Below, one piece after another: positions 3,172 through 29,359 of a stretch of 29,616 nt of DNA (position 1 is the first letter of the stretch; the number at the start of each line of letters is the position of its first letter). A model generated the notes under the pieces. The model was given only the letters and a program-made list of their open reading frames with translations, was not told the DNA's origin and searched no databases. The translations under genes and the position numbers were made by a program. The stretch covers positions 1 to 29,616 of IMG/VR virus record IMGVR_UViG_3300005664_000042, one strand, 5' to 3'. Source of the stretch: a virus.

Positions 3172-5327
3172 TGAACCCGACCAACCCAGGCGCAGTACCA
3201 GACCGCTACACCGTTCCCGACGTATCGGCGGATGATGTCATCGACGTTGACAGTGCTGACACCGAAGCCGAGTTCGCGGAACCCGCGCCGGACATGGGTC
3301 TGCCGGGAACGATGAACCGCCTGATGCAGTTCATCCAGTCGGAGAACATTGCCACGCTGCTGCCTGACGATGTGCTTGAGGAAATCGGCAAGCGCGTCAC
3401 TGACGACTACGACCTTGACAAGGACTCATGCTCCGACTGGTACGAAGTCAACGAAAAGGCGCTGGCATTGGCCAAGCAGGAAGGGGTACACAAGTCCTTC
3501 CCGTGGGAGGGGGCCGCCAACGTGGTCGTCCCGATTATCACGTCCGCATCCATCGCCTACGGTGCCCGCGTGCTGCCCGAGATTATCCGGCAGGGCGGCG
3601 TGGCCAATACCCGCATTCTTGGCAAGATGACCGACGCGAAGAAAGACCGCGCCGAACGGGTCAAGAACCACCTTGACTACCAACTGCTGTTCCAGATGAA
3701 GGAATGGCGGCGCGATACCGACAAACTTCTGTCGGTCTATTCTGTGTCGGGTGTCGCCTATCGGAAGGTCTGCTACGACCCGATCAAGGGCCGCAACGTG
3801 TCCATGTTACTGACGCCTGCCGAGGTCGTGGTAAACAACGGTATCACGTCGCTTGAGTCCGCTCGCCGTATCAGTCATGTCATGGAGATGTTCGGCAACG
3901 ACGTTGAGTCGAAGAAACGCGCCGGACTGTATCGTGACGTGGAACTGCACGTTGACCCGAGTGCCGGACTGGAAGACGCCAAACAGCCAGACGATGATCC
4001 GGCGTACAAGATTCTCGAACAGCACCGCTGGCTTGACCTTGATGACGACGGCTACGAAGAACCGTACATTGTCACCGTCGAAAAGGAGTCCGCGCAGGTT
4101 CTGCGCATCGTTGCCCGCTATGACGAGCGGGACGTAACGCACAAGGACGACGGAACGGTAGTTGCCATCGCTGCCCGCAGTTACTTCGTCGACTACCACT
4201 TTGTTCCGTCCTTTGATGGCACTTTCCTGTCGTATGGCTTCGGGGCGTTGCTTGGCAACCTGAACCGCGCAGCCAATAGCGTCCTTAACGCGCTGCTGAA
4301 CGCCGGCATGTTGAGCAACACGCAAGGGGGCTTTCTCGCCAAGGGATTCCGAATGCAGGGCGGCAATAAGCCACTGGCTGCCGGCGAGTGGCGCAAGACG
4401 GAAGTGCCTGCGGACATCCTGCAAAACTCCCTTCTTCCTATTCCGGCCAAGGAGCCGTCTGCCGTACTCGGTGCGCTGCTGGATAAGCTGATCGAAATGG
4501 CGCAGGCCATCGTATCGGTACAGTCCATCGGCCTTGATCAAATGCCTGCCAACGCAGCGGCATCGTCTGTCCTGTCAGTTATTGAGCAGCAGTCCAAGGT
4601 GTTTAACGCCACGTTCCTGCGGTTCTATCACTCTCTGTCCGATGAGCTTGTCCTGTACGGCGACCTGAACGCGCGTTACCTGAAGGACGATGAATACTTC
4701 CGCATCAATGACAGCGAGGGGAACATTAGCCGCGACGACTATGCGTCAAGCGACTTCGACATCATCCCGGTAGCCGACCCGACCATCACGACCCAAGCGC
4801 AGCGCATGGCGATTGCCAACACGACGTTTGAGGTTGCCAAGGCTGTTCCAGGATCGAACCTTGTCGAGGCGGGCCGCAACGTGCTGAAGGCCATCGGTGC
4901 CCCGGACATTGACCAGATCATCGCGCCGAGCGGGGCCGACACTGTGCCGCCAGAAGTTCAGCAGCAAATGCAGGCATTGCAGCAGCAGGCGCAGCAGGCC
5001 ACGCAGTTGGCGCAGCAGATGGGCGACGAACTGAAGGCCGTCAATCAGTTGCTGATCAACAAGGACAAGGAAAATGCAATCCGTGCATATGAGGCCATCA
5101 CCAAGGGTGAGGTCGGGCAGTCGCAGATTGTGAAGAATCTAGCCGATGCGCAAGCAAAGGGAGATAGCGCGGCAGTGGCTGCGTTTCAGGCTCAACTGGC
5201 AGCAGTTGGGCAATTAGGTAAATCGTTAGAGGCGACTATCAATGCAGCAAACAATAACACCGGAGACGGTGGCGGAATGGCTGGACAACCCGGTGACGCG
5301 CTTGCACCGAGAGCGGCTGGAAATTGA
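3171..5327 (+). CDS. Portal protein, P22-type large podovirus portal
   Basis: Twelve copies should form the ring at the unique capsid vertex through which DNA enters and leaves. The 718 residues are close to the P22 portal (725). An acidic N-terminus leads into SFPWEGAANVVVP, a segment typical of podoviral portals. The C-terminal part, from about residue 585, is a long Gln/Ala-rich helix like the portal barrel, ending in a Gly/Asn-rich tail. The ATG at 3171 shares its A with the terminase stop (TGATG) and sits 6 bases after GAGGA; a GTG three bases earlier is less well placed. Its order after the large terminase and before scaffold and capsid supports the call. Confidence 0.9.
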   Translation: MNPTNPGAVPDRYTVPDVSADDVIDVDSADTEAEFAEPAPDMGLPGTMNRLMQFIQSENIATLLPDDVLEEIGKRVTDDYDLDKDSCSDWYEVNEKALALAKQEGVHKSFPWEGAANVVVPIITSASIAYGARVLPEIIRQGGVANTRILGKMTDAKKDRAERVKNHLDYQLLFQMKEWRRDTDKLLSVYSVSGVAYRKVCYDPIKGRNVSMLLTPAEVVVNNGITSLESARRISHVMEMFGNDVESKKRAGLYRDVELHVDPSAGLEDAKQPDDDPAYKILEQHRWLDLDDDGYEEPYIVTVEKESAQVLRIVARYDERDVTHKDDGTVVAIAARSYFVDYHFVPSFDGTFLSYGFGALLGNLNRAANSVLNALLNAGMLSNTQGGFLAKGFRMQGGNKPLAAGEWRKTEVPADILQNSLLPIPAKEPSAVLGALLDKLIEMAQAIVSVQSIGLDQMPANAAASSVLSVIEQQSKVFNATFLRFYHSLSDELVLYGDLNARYLKDDEYFRINDSEGNISRDDYASSDFDIIPVADPTITTQAQRMAIANTTFEVAKAVPGSNLVEAGRNVLKAIGAPDIDQIIAPSGADTVPPEVQQQMQALQQQAQQATQLAQQMGDELKAVNQLLINKDKENAIRAYEAITKGEVGQSQIVKNLADAQAKGDSAAVAAFQAQLAAVGQLGKSLEATINAANNNTGDGGGMAGQPGDALAPRAAGN

Positions 5328-23232: not shown

Positions 23233-23544
23233 ATGAGTGCAGCGGAACAGGAAGCAATCTGGGAGCGCCTTGAGAAGCACGGCGACCTGATCAACGGTAT
23301 GCGCGTAGACCATGCGCAGTTGTCCGCAGACGTTAAGAACCTGACCAGCCTAGTGCGTGCGCGGGCTAACAAGGCCGAGGAACAGCACAAGGAAATCATC
23401 GCCAGTATCACGGCCCTGACCGCTGCCGAGAACGAGCGCGGCGGCATGGCGAAACTCGGCAGGGGCGCTGCAATGGTCATCGGTGCGATTGCTGCGGCTG
23501 CCGGCGTGATTGTCGCTGCGATGCACTGGAAGGGGTCGCCGTGA
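23233..23544 (+). CDS. Coiled-coil / transmembrane lysis-region protein (XhlA-like)
   Basis: The 103-residue product has a charged helical N-terminal region (about 1-70, with IWERLEKHGDLINGMRVDHAQL and ADVKNLTSLVRARANKAEEQHKEIIAS). A single hydrophobic segment follows (about 78-96, MVIGAIAAAAGVIVAAMHW). A coiled coil plus one C-terminal membrane anchor is the shape of XhlA-type hemolysin proteins and some holin or antiholin proteins near endolysins. The endolysin gene overlaps its end (GTGA). A lysis function is likely, but which role is open. Confidence 0.65.
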   Translation: MSAAEQEAIWERLEKHGDLINGMRVDHAQLSADVKNLTSLVRARANKAEEQHKEIIASITALTAAENERGGMAKLGRGAAMVIGAIAAAAGVIVAAMHWKGSP

Positions 23545-23954
23545 TCAACTCCCGCGCCATCAACGACCTAGACCCTCGCGTTGCCGCCAAATGCTTGGCA
23601 CTACAGGACGCCTGCCGCGATGCCGGCATAGACCTGATCGTCACATCCACCTATCGTGACTTCGCGTCACAGGACGCAATCTACGCGCAGGGGCGGACGG
23701 CACCCGGGAAGATCGTTACCAAGGCCCGGGCTGGCCAGTCGTGGCACAACTACCGGCTGGCCTTCGACGTTGTTCCGGTAGTGAACGGTAAGGCTGTCTG
23801 GAACGATTCTGCACTGTGGGCCACCATCGGTAGGCTTGGCGTGGCAGTCGGTTTAGAATGGGCTGGCAACTGGAAAACCTTTAAGGAAATGCCGCACTTC
23901 CAATGGACGGGCGGACTCACTCTAAAAGACCTGCAAGCGGGGAAAAGGCCATGA
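23541..23954 (+). CDS. Endolysin, M15 peptidase family (L-alanyl-D-glutamate-type)
   Basis: The enzyme should cut a peptide bond in murein at lysis. The 137-residue protein carries the M15 zinc-site set: SWHNYRLAFD gives His 69 and Asp 76, and EMPHFQW gives His 119. Glu 116 sits where related endolysins such as T5's have the catalytic Asp (D-x-x-H). STYRDFASQDAIYAQGR before them is a typical substrate-cleft stretch. The length matches small M15 phage endolysins, and no signal peptide is present, so it should need a holin. GTG start, GTGA overlap with the upstream gene. Confidence 0.88.
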   Translation: MINSRAINDLDPRVAAKCLALQDACRDAGIDLIVTSTYRDFASQDAIYAQGRTAPGKIVTKARAGQSWHNYRLAFDVVPVVNGKAVWNDSALWATIGRLGVAVGLEWAGNWKTFKEMPHFQWTGGLTLKDLQAGKRP

Positions 23955-24145
23955 AACTCGCAGACAACATTGGCAAGGCGTGGAGCGTGTGGCTCCTTTC
24001 CGCAGCGACCGCGCTGGCTGGCCTTGAGCCGTTCTTCCCAGCGCTGAAAGAGGCATTGCCGCCGAACTGGTACGCCGTTGCGCTGCCGGTCATTCTTGCG
24101 GCTCGCGTCATCAAGCAGGCATCCCATGAACATGAAACCCTCTGA
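23951..24145 (+). CDS. Probable holin (two membrane segments)
   Basis: The 64-residue protein starts at the ATG overlapping the endolysin stop (ATGA), with two hydrophobic segments. WSVWLLSAATALAGLEPFFPAL is followed by NWYAVALPVILAARVIKQ. The charged tail and the leading WSVWL phrase match a small holin family common in phages of Proteobacteria, as I recall. It is placed directly after the endolysin, as expected for timing of murein access. A longer in-frame start at 23903 exists but lies inside the endolysin gene and has no ribosome site. Confidence 0.75.
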   Translation: MKLADNIGKAWSVWLLSAATALAGLEPFFPALKEALPPNWYAVALPVILAARVIKQASHEHETL

Positions 24146-24245: not shown

Positions 24246-24361
24246 ACAACGTGTGGTTCTACGTCACAGCGTTCGCCATGCTGATCCTGTTCATTGTCGG
24301 CCTGTTCGTTCTGGCCGGCATGTGGCTTGTTGGCCGCTTGAGTCCTGACGATGAACCGTGA
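24224..24361 (+). CDS. Tiny single-membrane-segment protein in the lysis region
   Basis: A 45-residue frame runs from ATG 24224 to TGA 24361. It overlaps the preceding tiny frame by 22 bases and the following gene by 11. The N-terminus is basic (MRRFSFLNN), then a long hydrophobic helix (about 11-37), then an acidic tail (SPDDEP). The positive-inside layout fits a type II-like small membrane protein with the acidic end out. It may be a pinholin-like, antiholin-like or spanin-associated peptide, but no family is recognised. Confidence 0.5.
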   Translation: MRRFSFLNNVWFYVTAFAMLILFIVGLFVLAGMWLVGRLSPDDEP

Positions 24362-24905
24362 CGCATATCTGGCGATTGCCTGCGGGCTGCTGGGGCTGGC
24401 GCTGGGGTATGCCATATGGGGCACGACTGATCGGGTGATCATCGAAACGCCCGCGCCGTCTGTGACGTGGCAGGACGGCAGCGTGACGGCGGCCCGCGTC
24501 GTCGATACCAAGCCCAAGTTGCCCGCACCGTCGAAGCCGAAAGGCGGCAAGACGATCCGAACCGTAGAGGTGACGGTTCAGCCAGTAGTCAAGGAACCCT
24601 TGACACCTGCGTTCCCGGTTCCGGAACAAGGAACAAAAAACACACAAGACTGCCTGCCTGTCAACCTGCGGATTGACCTCGACCAGTACAAGGACGGCAT
24701 CCGCGCCTCGGTAATTGCCGAGAATGGCTCGGTAGTTGACGCCGCCGACTATCCAATTTCCCCGCTCATCCAGCCGATACGCTTCAAGTGGGCAATCGGC
24801 ATAGACGGTCACGCGCTTGCGATAGACCGCGACCTTGGCCGCGCCCGTGTTGGCGTGTCGATTGGCGACGGCGAGGTCAGGTATCGGGCGCTGGTGCGGT
24901 TCTGA
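24351..24905 (+). CDS. N-terminally anchored periplasmic protein, possible spanin-related
   Basis: The 184-residue product has a single N-terminal membrane segment (about 6-24, YLAIACGLLGLALGYAIWG). A Pro/Lys-rich linker follows (about 55-75) and then a soluble beta-rich C-terminal domain (about 100-184) with LRIDLDQYKDGIRASVIAENG. The layout is that of an inner-membrane-anchored periplasmic protein. An inner spanin would have this topology but also a long coiled coil, which is not seen. The Cys at 11 is not in a proper lipobox, so it is not a clear lipoprotein either. It is the last gene before a 78-base gap. Confidence 0.65.
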   Translation: MNRDAYLAIACGLLGLALGYAIWGTTDRVIIETPAPSVTWQDGSVTAARVVDTKPKLPAPSKPKGGKTIRTVEVTVQPVVKEPLTPAFPVPEQGTKNTQDCLPVNLRIDLDQYKDGIRASVIAENGSVVDAADYPISPLIQPIRFKWAIGIDGHALAIDRDLGRARVGVSIGDGEVRYRALVRF

Positions 24906-24983
24906 TACGTTCGTCCGGCGTCCGTTGACTTTCCTGCCGTTTGTAGGTACTTGCACTGACAGTCCAATAAAAAGGGGTCGGTT
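24906..24983 (+). other. Intergenic gap before the phosphoesterase gene
   Basis: A 78-base gap separates the lysis region from the phosphoesterase gene. It holds a TTGACT at 24925-24930 without a good -10 box at normal spacing, and an AAAAAGGGG ribosome site just before 24984. Weak transcription control may start here, but nothing firmer can be said. Confidence 0.4.
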
Positions 24984-26144
24984 ATGGATGCGTCGTATCT
25001 TGAGTTCTGTATATCTGATCGGCAGCGGCAGGTAGTCAATGAATGGGTGAGGGTCGGCTCCAACATCAGGTGCGCGCAAGCCCTCGGCGTCAACATCCGC
25101 ACACTTGAAAAGACGCTTGCCAGAATCAGGCTGCAAGCGGCGCAAAGGGGATACAGTCCCGCGCACGGCATGACCCATCCAACCCCGCCTACACATTACC
25201 TGAAGGGAACCAGCACCTACTACAACCGCGACGGCGTACAGTCCGGCCAATGGGTCAAGACTGACCGCGTTGCTGAGTCGATAGGCGAGCAAATCCGCGC
25301 CGTTGTCGATGGGCTGAAAGACGAAATACCCCGCGCCGCCAAGGTGCAAAAACCCGACAAACACGGCAACGCCGACCTGCATAACGCCTACATCATCACC
25401 GACTACCACCTCGGCATGTTGGCATGGGGTGAGGAGTGCGGAGAGGATTGGGACTTGGCCAAGGCCGAGGAACTTCTGTACAAATGGTTTGAGGCCGCAA
25501 TCGTGGCCGCTCCACGGGCAGCCAGCGCGACGTTTGCGCAGCTCGGTGACTTTATCCATTGGGATGGTCTGGATGCAGTCACGCCGGCAAGCAAGCACAT
25601 CCTTGATGCCGACACCAGGTTCCCCAAGGTAGTCCGCGCTGCCATCCGACTGATCCGTCGAATCATTGCCCTCTTGCTGACCCGCCATGACTCGCTGAAC
25701 GTCATCATGGCCGACGCTAACCACGATCCCGCGTCAGGCGTCTGGATGCGCGAAATGCTGGCCGAGTTCTACTCGGACGAATCGCGGGTGACGGTCGATA
25801 ACTCCCCCGACAGTTACTACGCGGTGCGGTTCGGTGACGTGCTGATGATGTATCACCACGGGCACAAGCGAAACGTCAGCAACGTGGACAGCGTAATGGT
25901 CGCCAAGTTCCGCGAAGACTACGGTCAGACCAAGTACCACTACTGCCACACGGGGCACCTGCACCACGATAAGGTTAGGGAGTCCAACCTGATGCACATC
26001 GAACAGCACGAAACACTATCGGCAAAGGACGCCTACGCCAGCCGGCACGGGTTTATGTCGCACCGTTCGGCCAAGGTCATCACCTGTCATGCCCGTTTTG
26101 GCGAAGTTTCCCGCGTGACAATCCGACCGGAGATGCTCAAGTGA
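24984..26144 (+). CDS. HTH-metallophosphoesterase fusion (calcineurin-like)
   Basis: The N-terminal part (about 10-52) is a LuxR/sigma-r4-like helix-turn-helix: ISDRQRQVVNEWVRVGSNIRCAQALGVNIRTLEKTLARI. The rest carries every motif of a calcineurin-like phosphoesterase: D140-x-H142, G188-D-x-x-H192 within LGDFIHWDG, N246-H247-D248, H291-H-G-H294 and G324-H-x-H327 in TGHLHHD. The family binds two metals and cleaves phosphate esters or DNA. Here the N-terminal HTH suggests a DNA-acting enzyme. It lies after the lysis genes, the first gene of a small block with DUF3310. Proteins of this layout occur in other phages, to my recollection, and the true substrate is unknown. Confidence 0.85.
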   Translation: MDASYLEFCISDRQRQVVNEWVRVGSNIRCAQALGVNIRTLEKTLARIRLQAAQRGYSPAHGMTHPTPPTHYLKGTSTYYNRDGVQSGQWVKTDRVAESIGEQIRAVVDGLKDEIPRAAKVQKPDKHGNADLHNAYIITDYHLGMLAWGEECGEDWDLAKAEELLYKWFEAAIVAAPRAASATFAQLGDFIHWDGLDAVTPASKHILDADTRFPKVVRAAIRLIRRIIALLLTRHDSLNVIMADANHDPASGVWMREMLAEFYSDESRVTVDNSPDSYYAVRFGDVLMMYHHGHKRNVSNVDSVMVAKFREDYGQTKYHYCHTGHLHHDKVRESNLMHIEQHETLSAKDAYASRHGFMSHRSAKVITCHARFGEVSRVTIRPEMLK

Positions 26145-26362
26145 ACGACCAAGTAAACCACCCGTCGCACTACACATCAGGCGCAATCGAGTGCATCGAC
26201 GCCATCGAATCGGCCACCGCCAACTTGACCGGAACGGAAGCCTACTGCACCGGCAACGCCATCAAGTACCTGTGGCGCTGGAAGCAGAAAGGCGGCAAGC
26301 AAGACCTTGCCAAAGCCCGCTGGTACATCGAGAGGATGCTGGCCGATGGACAAGCCAAGTGA
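26141..26362 (+). CDS. DUF3310 protein (related to T7 gp1.7)
   Basis: The 73-residue protein starts with GTG in a GTGA overlap. It has NHPSHYTSGAIECIDAI near the start and YCTGNAIKYLWRWKQKGGKQDLAKARWYIERML after it, the full DUF3310 signature. The domain is widespread in phages and is found in T7 gp1.7, a nucleotide kinase that affects thymidine analog sensitivity. The isolated domain has not, to my knowledge, been shown to do the same. A role in nucleotide metabolism during phage DNA synthesis is therefore possible but unproven. Confidence 0.85.
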   Translation: MNDQVNHPSHYTSGAIECIDAIESATANLTGTEAYCTGNAIKYLWRWKQKGGKQDLAKARWYIERMLADGQAK

Positions 26363-26660
26363 CAAGAAACTCGGCAGGATTGGCATAGCCAGCCAGACGG
26401 AGAAACTGGCCGACCCGCTGCGGGAAATGCTTGTCGATAAACTGCTGCACATGCTGGCAGAGGTACGAGCTGGTCGTATGGTTGGCCTGTTCGGGGTTGC
26501 CGTGCTCGAGGACGACAACGAACACGGCATAGAGATCATTGAGGAAGGCTACACGCTGGTCGAGGCTGACGTGATCCTGGGTCTTGAGTACACGGCGCGT
26601 GACCTTCGTGAGTCGTGGGAGGCCGAGAGGATCCACGGGATAGACCCTGCTGCGGACTGA
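26346..26660 (+). CDS. Small acidic protein of unknown function
   Basis: The 104-residue product begins with a charged Lys/Asp stretch (MDKPSDKKLGRIG). It continues into a helical region with LREMLVDKLLHMLAEVRAGRMVGLFGVAVLEDDNE and ends acidic. The ATG at 26346 overlaps the DUF3310 gene by 17 bases; an upstream in-frame ATG at 26307 would overlap more and looks like a shadow. It is the last rightward gene before the convergent region. No family is recognised. Confidence 0.6.
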   Translation: MDKPSDKKLGRIGIASQTEKLADPLREMLVDKLLHMLAEVRAGRMVGLFGVAVLEDDNEHGIEIIEEGYTLVEADVILGLEYTARDLRESWEAERIHGIDPAAD

Positions 26661-26661
26661 C

Positions 26662-26691
26662 GTGTATAGAAAAACGCCATTTCCTATACAC
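26662..26691. repeat. Inverted repeat in the convergent intergenic region
   Basis: GTGTATAG at 26662-26669 and CTATACAC at 26684-26691 are perfect reverse complements around a 14-base loop, extended by AAA/TTT with one bulged base. Neither side is followed by a good T run beyond the loop, so it may be a stability hairpin, an operator or part of a double terminator with the next stem. Confidence 0.6.
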
Positions 26692-26695
26692 AAAA

Positions 26696-26728
26696 AGACG
26701 CCCCATCGACCGGGAGGAAGTGGGGCGT
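26696..26728 (-). terminator. Rho-independent terminator for the leftward operon
   Basis: ACGCCCCA (26698-26705) and TGGGGCGT (26721-26728) form a perfect 8-base stem with a 15-base loop. Read on the minus strand the stem is followed by CTTTTTG (complement of 26691-26697), a T tract in the correct place. It lies 57 bases past the end of the last leftward gene. On the plus strand no T run follows, so it would serve the leftward transcript first. Confidence 0.7.
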
Positions 26729-26784
26729 TGAGGGCCGCTTGTGGCGGCTTGGAGCATTAAAACACCGGATGAAAGTGTGGCCCG

Positions 26785-26988
26785 CTAGGTACTCCCGGCG
26801 AACACGCAAACATCGTTGCGCTTAAGCAGCCAGCACAGCACCTCCATAGCCTGCTCGGAGTTGTTGGCGGGGTCGAAGATGTTGGCCATCTCGCACTTGT
26901 TGTCGACCCATATCCGGCCTGCGCCATCCATGAATGCGGACGGGTCGTAAGCCCGCGCCAGTTTCAGCATCGCGTCTTGGTCGGTCAT
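26785..26988 (-). CDS. Small acidic protein of unknown function, last gene of the leftward operon
   Basis: The 67-residue protein starts at ATG 26988, which overlaps the preceding stop (ATGA) and follows a perfect AGGAGG five or six bases away. An in-frame ATG at 27039 lies inside the neighbour and is not preferred. The product has GRIWVDNKCEMANIF and a helical LCWLLKRNDVC segment. Two Cys could pair or bind metal, but no motif is recognised. Confidence 0.7.
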   Translation of the reverse strand: MTDQDAMLKLARAYDPSAFMDGAGRIWVDNKCEMANIFDPANNSEQAMEVLCWLLKRNDVCVFAGST

Positions 26989-27215
26989 GGTACCTCCTGT
27001 GCGAATAGGTCTGGCGTTCTGTTTTCTGGACGAATCCATGCGCTCAACATTTTTGCTGATGTTTCACGGTCAACTAGCCGGACAATGCCGCCACGCTTTT
27101 CCCATGAGTCAAAAGTCTTCGCATCCGACACCCTGCGCGAGTCGTCAGGAACAAGGGCTGCAAACGCTGTGCCCGGCAAGTTCGGGTCTTCTGCAACCCA
27201 TATCATGTCGGTCAT
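26985..27215 (-). CDS. Small protein of unknown function
   Basis: The 76-residue product begins MTDMIWVAEDPNLPGTAFAALV. It has a mixed alpha/beta look with an SWEKRGGIVRLVDRETSAKML segment. The start at 27215 is set by a GGGGGAG ribosome site and a 4-base overlap with the preceding stop; a farther upstream in-frame ATG is rejected. It resembles small phage accessory proteins with no known function. Confidence 0.65.
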   Translation of the reverse strand: MTDMIWVAEDPNLPGTAFAALVPDDSRRVSDAKTFDSWEKRGGIVRLVDRETSAKMLSAWIRPENRTPDLFAQEVP

Positions 27216-27523: not shown

Positions 27524-27831
27524 CACTCCACCCCCTTTCCGGCTGACTGCGCGGCTCTCGGGTATCCGTTGTAGGTATCATGCTTCGACATTTCGTTAAT
27601 CAGGTGCTCTGTCAACGCTGCCGCAATCTCTTTAGCCGCTTCCTCACGCAAGCGCACAACCCGTTTCTCTGAAGGTGATCCGGGCAGCCACCCACCGTAA
27701 ATGGCAGCGACAAGCGGGTCGTCTGCTGTTTTCATAGGCTTGAACGCTTCCACAAGTGGTTCTGCCACGACAATCGACGCGCCACCTGAAAAGTGGTTTC
27801 CATCAGCGTTAACGGTTATTCGGAGTCTCAC
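27523..27831 (-). CDS. Small protein of unknown function
   Basis: The 102-residue product starts with GTG in a GTGA overlap, after a GGAAGGAA ribosome site. It opens MRLRITVNADGNHFSGGASIVVAEPLVEAF. A helical, charged segment (about 55-85, SEKRVVRLREEAAKEIAAALTEHLINEM) follows, and the tail is basic. No family or motif is recognised. Confidence 0.65.
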   Translation of the reverse strand: MRLRITVNADGNHFSGGASIVVAEPLVEAFKPMKTADDPLVAAIYGGWLPGSPSEKRVVRLREEAAKEIAAALTEHLINEMSKHDTYNGYPRAAQSAGKGVE

Positions 27832-28058
27832 GTTCCTTCCCCCTTCGCTGCCTGCTGGGAGGCGGCGAGGTCGTCATAGGCGACTATCGCGTAGCCGAAG
27901 CAATCCGTACCAACATCACGCGCATCGCGTCGCAAACCCGTCCACGGATTGAACAGCCACGCTACGCTTCCGTGATAGATGCGGTACTGGTCTGCGTGCG
28001 ACGGGTAAGGCTTTTCTGCTCCGGTCGCCGGGTCGTAAATCATCAGATGTTTGCTCAT
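27828..28058 (-). CDS. Small protein of unknown function with shared C-terminal tail
   Basis: The 76-residue protein starts at ATG 28058 (ATGA overlap with the neighbour) with GGAG upstream. It has an aromatic-rich middle, YRIYHGSVAWLFNPWTG, and ends AASQQAAKGEGT. The end is nearly the same as that of the next upstream gene (AASQQAAKNGETP), and the DNA under it is identical over 22 bases. No family is recognised. Confidence 0.65.
   Translation of the reverse strand: MSKHLMIYDPATGAEKPYPSHADQYRIYHGSVAWLFNPWTGLRRDARDVGTDCFGYAIVAYDDLAASQQAAKGEGT
27847..27868. repeat. 22-base direct repeat, copy 1 (gene end)
   Basis: The plus-strand run beginning GCTGCCTGCTGGG and ending GGCGGCGA is identical to 28077-28098, 230 bases away. 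On the minus strand both copies encode the AASQQAA part of two gene ends in the same frame. It suggests module exchange or local duplication at gene ends. Confidence 0.8.
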
Positions 28059-28393
28059 GGCGTTTCTCCATTTTTGGCTGCCTGCTGGGAGGCGGCGATC
28101 ATGGCGCGGTAGATTCTGGCCGCTGCGTTCTGATCGTTTTCAGTTGAACCGCTAATCCCGTATTGCTTTGCGCAATCAAAGAAGGTTTCGCCACCTACGA
28201 TATACATTTCTGCGGATATTTCTTCCGCCGCCGCCTCCCGCTTGGCGATGGCCGCCAGAACGACACGGATTGCATCAGACAGCCGGCGCTGCATGTTCGA
28301 TGTCAGTTCGGTGTTCTCGCCAATCGTTGCGTCAGCAAACTCGTCAGCGTAGGCGCCGAGCAATTCGGTTGCGTCTTTCAGTTCGTCGCTCAC
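28055..28393 (-). CDS. Small acidic helical protein of unknown function
   Basis: The 112-residue product begins with GTG in a GTGA overlap and opens MSDELKDATELLGAYADEFADATIG. It is largely helical, with RRLSDAIRVVLAAIAKREAAAEEI in the middle, and ends AASQQAAKNGETP. The tail is shared with the next gene downstream. No motif is recognised. Confidence 0.65.
   Translation of the reverse strand: MSDELKDATELLGAYADEFADATIGENTELTSNMQRRLSDAIRVVLAAIAKREAAAEEISAEMYIVGGETFFDCAKQYGISGSTENDQNAAARIYRAMIAASQQAAKNGETP
28077..28098. repeat. 22-base direct repeat, copy 2 (gene end)
   Basis: Identical to 27847-27868 and lying at the end of the upstream neighbour in the leftward operon. The in-frame reading is conserved in both copies. 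See copy 1. Confidence 0.8.
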
Positions 28394-28986
28394 GTTGCGT
28401 CTCCTTTGGCGAGGATGGCCGAAACCATTGCGTACTCGTCAGATGATTCCATACCAATGTCTTCCAGCAACATTGACACGCGATTAAGCGCATCCCGCGC
28501 ATCGCCGGCAGTCTCCGTGGCAGGCTGCGCTTTGCTGACCGCATCAATAAACGGCTCAACGTCGTGCCGGTCGCGGCCTTTCAGCGCGCAAGACAGGAAG
28601 AACCGCAGGCGCTCTACCGGGTTTTGTTCTTCATCTCCGCCGGCAGCCATGTATGCAGCGATTGCAGGGGCAGGCGGCTGTGCTGGGGCGGCTGCGTAAA
28701 TAGTGTCGATAACCTCGGACAGTTTTACGTAAGCGAATCGCTGCCCACCTAGCGACTCAAGACGGCTGGGAATATCCCGGATTCGCTTCGCAAGGTCTGT
28801 GCGAAACTCCGACAGGTTTGCCGGCACCGCCCGCCGCGCACCTTCCAGCGCGTCGCAGGCTGTGCGGATGGCTTCCGTAACTGTACTCGGCGTCGGCGCT
28901 TCTTCCGATTCGTCTCCGCAGCGCCATGCGTTGAACGCGCGCAAATACGCAATCGCTTCGTCTTCCGTCATCTTCTGGGTAGTCAT
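28390..28986 (-). CDS. Protein of unknown function in the leftward operon
   Basis: The 198-residue protein is the longest complete gene of the operon. It starts at ATG 28986, with AGGAG before it and a 4-base overlap with the upstream gene; the more distal in-frame ATG at 29007 is not preferred. The opening, MTTQKMTEDEAIAYLRAFNAWRCGD, resembles the start of several phage hypothetical proteins. A Pro/Ala linker lies at about 105-115, and the rest is helical. No catalytic motif is seen. Confidence 0.65.
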   Translation of the reverse strand: MTTQKMTEDEAIAYLRAFNAWRCGDESEEAPTPSTVTEAIRTACDALEGARRAVPANLSEFRTDLAKRIRDIPSRLESLGGQRFAYVKLSEVIDTIYAAAPAQPPAPAIAAYMAAGGDEEQNPVERLRFFLSCALKGRDRHDVEPFIDAVSKAQPATETAGDARDALNRVSMLLEDIGMESSDEYAMVSAILAKGDAT

Positions 28987-28998
28987 GGCTTCTGCTCC
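28983..28998. repeat. 16-base direct repeat at a stop/start junction, copy 1
   Basis: TCATGGCTTCTGCTCC on the plus strand is the same as 29344-29359. On the minus strand each copy carries the GGAGCAGAAGCC leader, the next gene's ATG and the final codons of the upstream gene (ending EQKP). Confidence 0.75.
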
Positions 28999-29189: not shown

Positions 29190-29347
29190 TTCTTGCCACC
29201 GTTCAAGTAGTTGACTCTTGCCGCCGCATCACTGCGTTTCGCATGGTCACTGTCACCCTGCCACTCTCCTGACGGATCGTAAAATCCAACAGTGAAAACC
29301 CCCGGCTCTGTTTCGATATAAACCCAGCACGTCATTACGTCTCTCAT
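29186..29347 (-). CDS. Small protein of unknown function (53 residues)
   Basis: This short frame runs from ATG 29347 to TGA 29186 and overlaps both neighbours by 4 bases. It has GGAG upstream. The product opens MRDVMTCWVYIETEPGVFTVGFYDPSGEW and continues with a charged SDHAKRSDAAARVNYLNGGKK end. It resembles small phage proteins where a beta hairpin precedes a helix, with conserved GFYDP-like phrase and an 'AA-rVNYLNGG' tail. That is a common small phage protein pattern to my memory. No function is known. Confidence 0.7.
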   Translation of the reverse strand: MRDVMTCWVYIETEPGVFTVGFYDPSGEWQGDSDHAKRSDAAARVNYLNGGKK

Positions 29348-29359
29348 GGCTTCTGCTCC
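29344..29359. repeat. 16-base direct repeat at a stop/start junction, copy 2
   Basis: Identical to 28983-28998. It spans the end of the partial gene at the window edge and the ribosome site and start of the 53-residue gene. Confidence 0.75.

Follow-up and report, generated by a model that had tools for sequence, protein, structure and literature searches.

The gene at 24984-26144 of the window, that is, of the 29.6-kb virus record analyzed here, which is possibly a fragment, encodes a PHROG 704 family protein in which a predicted N-terminal helix-turn-helix (HTH) domain is fused, through a β-hairpin linker, to a calcineurin-like metallophosphoesterase (MPE) core. The best explanation of this protein, which we hold with moderate confidence, is an HTH-guided DNA nuclease of phage DNA metabolism. 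The less expected result concerns how it has diversified: the putative DNA-binding half appears to have been exchanged between phages, with the catalytic half nearly unchanged. The gene and its parts are laid out as follows.

24972-24977, plus strand: AAGGGG, a Shine-Dalgarno-like element 6 nt before the MPE ATG (sequence)
24984-26144, plus strand: HTH-MPE gene, PHROG 704 member, 386 aa (open reading frame, profile, model, alignment)
24990-25145, plus strand: predicted tetrahelical HTH, residues 3-54, LuxR/GerE- and sigma region 4-like (model, profiles)
25194-25268, plus strand: conserved β-hairpin linker, residues 71-95, containing 'KGTSTYYNRDGVQSGQWVKT' (alignment, model)
25368-26123, plus strand: MPE catalytic core, residues 129-380, with D140, H142, D189, H192, N246, H247, H292, H325 and H327

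In the list of open reading frames, the gene starts with ATG and spans 386 codons and a stop; the closest relative, L002, has an ATG at the equivalent position. Between these two genes dN/dS is ~0.12 overall, with synonymous sites near saturation, a pattern that at the sequence level shows purifying selection and therefore marks a real gene, not a chance reading frame. The product matches the PHROG 704 profile over residues 26-386 (E=1.8e-124, 416.8 bits) and has that family's layout of HTH, QWVKT-type hairpin and MPE. Pfam and NCBIfam scans with the single window sequence returned nothing, which reflects a limit of those models and is no evidence against the fold. By tblastn, 1,996 of 50,697 phage records carry a member, 1,921 of them with a match over at least 80% of the protein; going by sequence, the HTH fusion is the norm within the family. 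LIMEzero ORF27/28, Era103 gp26, Jersey gp24 and MPK9_00027 have the same layout as the window protein, and members share with the window gene lysis- or nuclease-adjacent locations. The nearer members are ~45-56% identical to the window protein, which differs from the others in having its own divergent HTH. The LIMEzero member (L082, 7920-9043) is split into ORF27 and ORF28 in its record, possibly by a frameshift or sequencing error. The label that PHROG 704 carries, "DNA repair exonuclease", is a database name only.

The sequence-only reading of this gene had proposed an HTH fused to a calcineurin-like phosphoesterase, and an AlphaFold2 model built on 86 relatives (mean pLDDT 91.9, pTM 0.76) bears it out: the HTH is present in the model at residues 3-54 and the phosphoesterase at residues 129-380. 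The four HTH helices (residues 3-8, 12-24, 27-34 and 38-54) are predicted with a mean pLDDT of 94-98. In the first AlphaFold2 model, made from 24 close relatives, the MPE core came out poorly (pLDDT 72.7), and matches to it are not relied on; the HTH was well modeled, and Foldseek linked it to −35-binding domains of sigma factors (prob 0.97 and 0.82). Over positions 9-60, the family profile finds its best PDB sequence match in GerE, which has a LuxR-type HTH; the match is weak (E=0.22). On these two matches, the earlier description of the HTH as "LuxR/sigma-like" is a fair one. Two Pfam HTH models matched 19/24 and 13/24 relatives; neither matched the window protein itself. More widely, an N-terminal HTH is aligned in 266 of 283 relatives and none is aligned in 16 of 283; some relatives thus do without an aligned HTH, and the domain would therefore be dispensable for whatever the MPE core does.

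The five MPE motifs (D140-x-H142, G188-D189, N246-H247-D248, H292 and G324-H325-x-H327) are all intact, as had been claimed from the sequence, and together with the fold they place the protein in the calcineurin-like metallophosphoesterase superfamily. Within an alignment of 284 relatives that extends to ~24% identity, D140, H142, D189, H192, R268, H292 and H325 are invariant, N246, H247 and H327 are each kept in 283, and so is W90 of the hairpin. Such invariance of catalytic residues over very divergent relatives is unlike a retired enzyme, and the conserved part of the protein is the MPE core, not the HTH. Both observations weigh against a transcription regulator, whose HTH would bind a phage operator, for example near a lysis or late promoter, and whose MPE core would be structural or regulatory. 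Such a regulator would have a counterpart in the Bxb1 phage MPE Gp47, which reportedly has no phosphoesterase activity and serves as a recombination directionality factor (PMC12287305), and would suit both the fast divergence of the HTH domains and the position of the gene between early/middle and lysis genes in MPK9 and Drexlerviridae. However, Autographiviridae, which have their own RNA polymerase, carry the MPE gene among nucleases, and a regulatory role seems to us very improbable.

Structural comparison points instead toward DNA cleavage. Searched with the 86-relative model, Foldseek returned 114 PDB matches at E≤0.001, and the matches listed are mostly MPE proteins. The nearest solved folds are PolD DP1, which proofreads as a 3′-5′ exonuclease (E 3.8e-8), and Mre11 (E 1.3e-7); Rv0805, LpxH, Vps29 and GpdQ come next, at E ~1e-5 to 1e-6. 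That the two nearest are DNA nucleases favors, without proving, cleavage of DNA by the MPE core, and a DNA-directed hydrolase, already proposed from the sequence, is with moderate confidence still the best reading. The top match, PolD DP1 (the DNA polymerase small-subunit phosphoesterase), has ~11% identity to the window protein at TM 0.33-0.40, and no DP2-type polymerase partner was seen. Mre11/SbcD has in common with the window protein the MPE fold, the metal site and the GD-x-x-H histidine; when the family profile is aligned with Thermotoga maritima Mre11, H192 falls on the histidine of "GDLLH". From motif position we infer that H192 corresponds to PfMre11 H52, and H247 to H85. The H85S substitution in PfMre11 abolishes exonuclease and endonuclease activity alike, whereas H52S retains the endonuclease and loses the exonuclease (PMC8007570). 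Unlike Mre11/SbcD, which has a C-terminal capping/Rad50-binding region, the window protein has an N-terminal HTH. Orthology with SbcD/Mre11 was rejected: no NCBIfam SbcD model matched, and hhalign gave 18.5% over only 26 columns, at the N-H-D motif. SbcD/Mre11 is kept as a working analogy for the MPE protein.

As a DNA nuclease, the protein would dock on double-stranded DNA through its HTH, probably with a preference for sequence or structure. The MPE core, with two bound metals that are probably Mn2+ as in Mre11, would hydrolyze a DNA phosphodiester at an end, at a nick or in a recombination or packaging intermediate. We favor this reading because the high-confidence model combines an HTH with an MPE whose nearest folds are DNA-nuclease MPEs, because H192 never varies and both H247 and the metal ligands are invariant or nearly so, because DNA-processing genes are repeatedly linked to the gene in Autographiviridae and Drexlerviridae, and because Gp48, another phage MPE, breaks down DNA in vitro. 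Against it stands the promiscuity of the MPE fold, evident from the matches to Rv0805, LpxH, Vps29 and GpdQ, together with low TM-scores to nuclease structures (only 0.33-0.48). Also against it, the literature searched, largely without subscription papers, yielded no biochemically characterized PHROG 704 member, no SbcC/Rad50 partner is annotated in the phage neighborhoods read or recognized among the window open reading frames scanned, and some relatives have no aligned HTH.

Nuclease chemistry could also be turned outward. A10ZJ24 Gp48, a mycobacteriophage MPE, degrades DNA in vitro and, besides degrading host DNA, acts in counter-defense (PMC12287305). T5 A1 (PHROG 1745, 556 aa), an MPE-superfamily phage protein linked to DNA degradation, is a predicted calcineurin-like phosphodiesterase (PMC7824862), and its annotation gives it a part in host DNA degradation. 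Both lend some credit to a host- or competitor-directed DNase that breaks the DNA of the host or of a rival replicon, counters defense or recycles nucleotides, with an exchangeable HTH picking the target; a shifting target would itself produce HTH exchange on a constant MPE. But neither T5 A1 nor D29 gp66, which is related to Gp48, is a detectable sequence relative. D29 gp66 (PHROG 547), also a mycobacteriophage MPE, has ~200 aa and no HTH, and was rejected as the same family (hhalign prob 1.3%, a different PHROG); T5 A1 was likewise rejected (hhalign prob 2.1% over 20 columns, a different PHROG). By eye, the N-H-D and G-H-x-H motifs of T5 A1 resemble those of the window protein; querying the PDB by sequence with T5 A1 added nothing of use. 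In many phages, moreover, the MPE gene keeps company with late or lysis genes and would presumably be expressed once the host has been taken over; no target emerged from the analysis either, and we consider such a DNase unlikely.

The genomic setting bears on all of these readings. The neighbors of the MPE gene in the window are the following.

23541-23954, plus strand: M15-type endolysin, a lysis gene upstream of the MPE gene (family scan)
23948-24145, plus strand: holin-like gene (family scan)
24351-24905, plus strand: 184-aa gene directly 5′ of the MPE gene, a putative spanin from its position; no match in a PHROG scan
26141-26362, plus strand: DUF3310/"nucleotide kinase"-type small gene, its start overlapping the MPE stop by 4 nt
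26346-26660, plus strand: small open reading frame of 104 aa with an ATG start, overlapping the end of the DUF3310-type gene (open reading frame list)

The gene thus follows lysis genes and precedes a DUF3310-type gene, as the sequence-only reading had it; the further claim that this location is unexpected did not survive comparison with relatives. Of the 194 relatives in which the MPE gene has 2 kb or more on each side, 67 have a recognizable endolysin within 2 kb of it: 17/36 window-like, 22/44 Drexlerviridae-like, 18/50 Rhodobacter-like, 8/53 Vibrio-like and 2/11 genome loci. These counts are lower bounds, because the search covered only endolysins resembling 15 query proteins, and are not independent, because many loci are near-duplicates. 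Lysis genes adjoin or nearly adjoin the MPE gene in Drexlerviridae, in the lambdoid MPK9 (putative nucleotide kinase, MPE, one gene, holin, endolysin), in Rhodobacter RcMrWorf (holin and endolysin, then at some remove MPE) and in a Vibrio phage; in JLBYU09, Dam is followed at some remove by MPE, holin, endolysin and spanin. A place beside lysis genes is an ordinary, common location for this gene. Other arrangements occur: in Drexlerviridae, helicase, nuclease and Dam precede the MPE gene, and in Jersey it lies in an oppositely oriented block among tail genes. In the T7-like Autographiviridae the order is exonuclease, endonuclease VII, MPE and polynucleotide kinase.

This last arrangement is the chief attraction of an end-healing enzyme, a 3′-phosphatase or 2′,3′-cyclic phosphodiesterase that would repair DNA or RNA ends together with a polynucleotide kinase and a ligase. 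Just 3′ of the MPE gene, LIMEzero, Era103 and J8-65 carry a polynucleotide kinase gene, and Era103 has an ATP-dependent DNA ligase as well; MPE enzymes commonly hydrolyze both mono- and diesters. The kinase partnership is nevertheless seen only in Autographiviridae and is absent from the window and from the Drexlerviridae, Guernseyvirinae, lambdoid, Vibrio and Rhodobacter neighborhoods; with nucleases as the nearest folds as well, end healing appears distinctly unlikely.

Within the window, the 4-nt overlap suggests co-translation, and the DUF3310-type gene is probably translationally coupled to the MPE gene. The small open reading frame at 26346-26660, which had no match in a family scan done from its longer TTG start, probably closes the plus-strand unit. 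Between the convergent units, at 26685-26735, lies a GC-rich hairpin (ACGCCCCA...TGGGGCGT) accompanied by a minus-strand T-run, a possible terminator. Beyond it, small open reading frames on the minus strand have C-terminal coding tails in common: one, coding for "AASQQAAK...", at 27831-27868 and 28061-28098, and another, coding for "...EQKP" and an exact 16-nt repeat, at 28983-28998 and 29344-29359; these tails look as if gene ends had been duplicated or recombined. A search for Rfam matches, tRNAs and sigma-70-like promoters turned up nothing that clarified regulation of the MPE gene, and megablast found no phage DNA close to the window. In L002, a different M15-like endolysin (4524-4859) occupies the place of the window's 23541-23954 gene, and no DUF3310-type gene was recognized 3′ of the MPE gene, so that the lysis/cargo region is mosaic between L002 and the window. 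A small minus-strand protein (window 26785-27039, L002 8120-8437) starts near-identically in the two ("MTDQDAMLKLARAYDPSAFMDGAGRIWVDNKCEMANIFDPANN") and diverges thereafter.

The sharpest contrast between L002 and the window runs through the MPE gene product, with 91% identity in the MPE, 81% in the hairpin and 41% in the HTH. The same pattern recurs elsewhere. Compared in 60-nt steps, L007 and L011 are 75-98% identical over nearly all of 2.5 kb upstream and over ~1.2 kb downstream, and identity drops to 58-72% at ~20 to 200 nt into the MPE gene; nowhere in this pair's aligned flanks is the drop as sharp as in the HTH. Synonymous differences between L008 and L011 jump from a pS of 0.30 in the MPE to 0.67 in the HTH, which goes beyond fast protein change and points to replacement by recombination or to long-kept alleles. 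L053 and L063 have MPEs 99% identical and an HTH pN of 0.45. The reverse case is found in L040 and L228, where the HTH is 93% identical and the DNA flanks ~85-87%, with only 49% identity in the MPE. These alignments argue that the HTH and MPE halves are exchanged separately between related phages, or that the HTH is hypervariable.

Counts across the family agree. Grouping MPEs at 93% identity or above yields 44 clusters. Two or more HTH types (types being <65% identical) occur together in 9 of them, two or more hairpin/linker types in 3, and two or more types of any equal-sized MPE segment in none, although clustering on the MPE core itself biases against variable MPE segments. Anchored on residues 236-386 only, the counts become 13/42 for the HTH, 8/42 for the hairpin/linker and 0/42 for MPE segments outside the anchor. 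Chance mosaicism, checked by these equal-sized windows along the protein, was rejected as the source of HTH divergence on the 44-cluster counts. HTH exchange, taken with the relatives that have no aligned HTH, argues that the domain is a detachable module, as expected of a targeting domain. The swapping of DNA-recognition domains is familiar in phage repressors and related proteins, so the exchange is notable but has precedent. By eye, no DNA site covarying with the HTH was found in the flank identity profiles. A more speculative extension of the nuclease reading, to which we assign a low likelihood, is that recombination re-aims the enzyme, swapping the HTH on a constant MPE, and occasionally the reverse, as the DNA sequence read by the HTH changes; its target might be, for example, the DNA of a rival phage or a processing site of the phage itself.

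PHROG 704 is present in ~4% of the phage records searched and carries a functional label for which no direct support was found. For specialists, the interest lies in the combination of an exchanged HTH with an abundant enzyme family. The natural HTH-exchange pairs (L007/L011, L053/L063 and window/L002), together with the model and the catalytic residues, make both activity and specificity testable. If the HTH does set the target of a nuclease, the family would constitute a widespread phage DNA-targeting enzyme.
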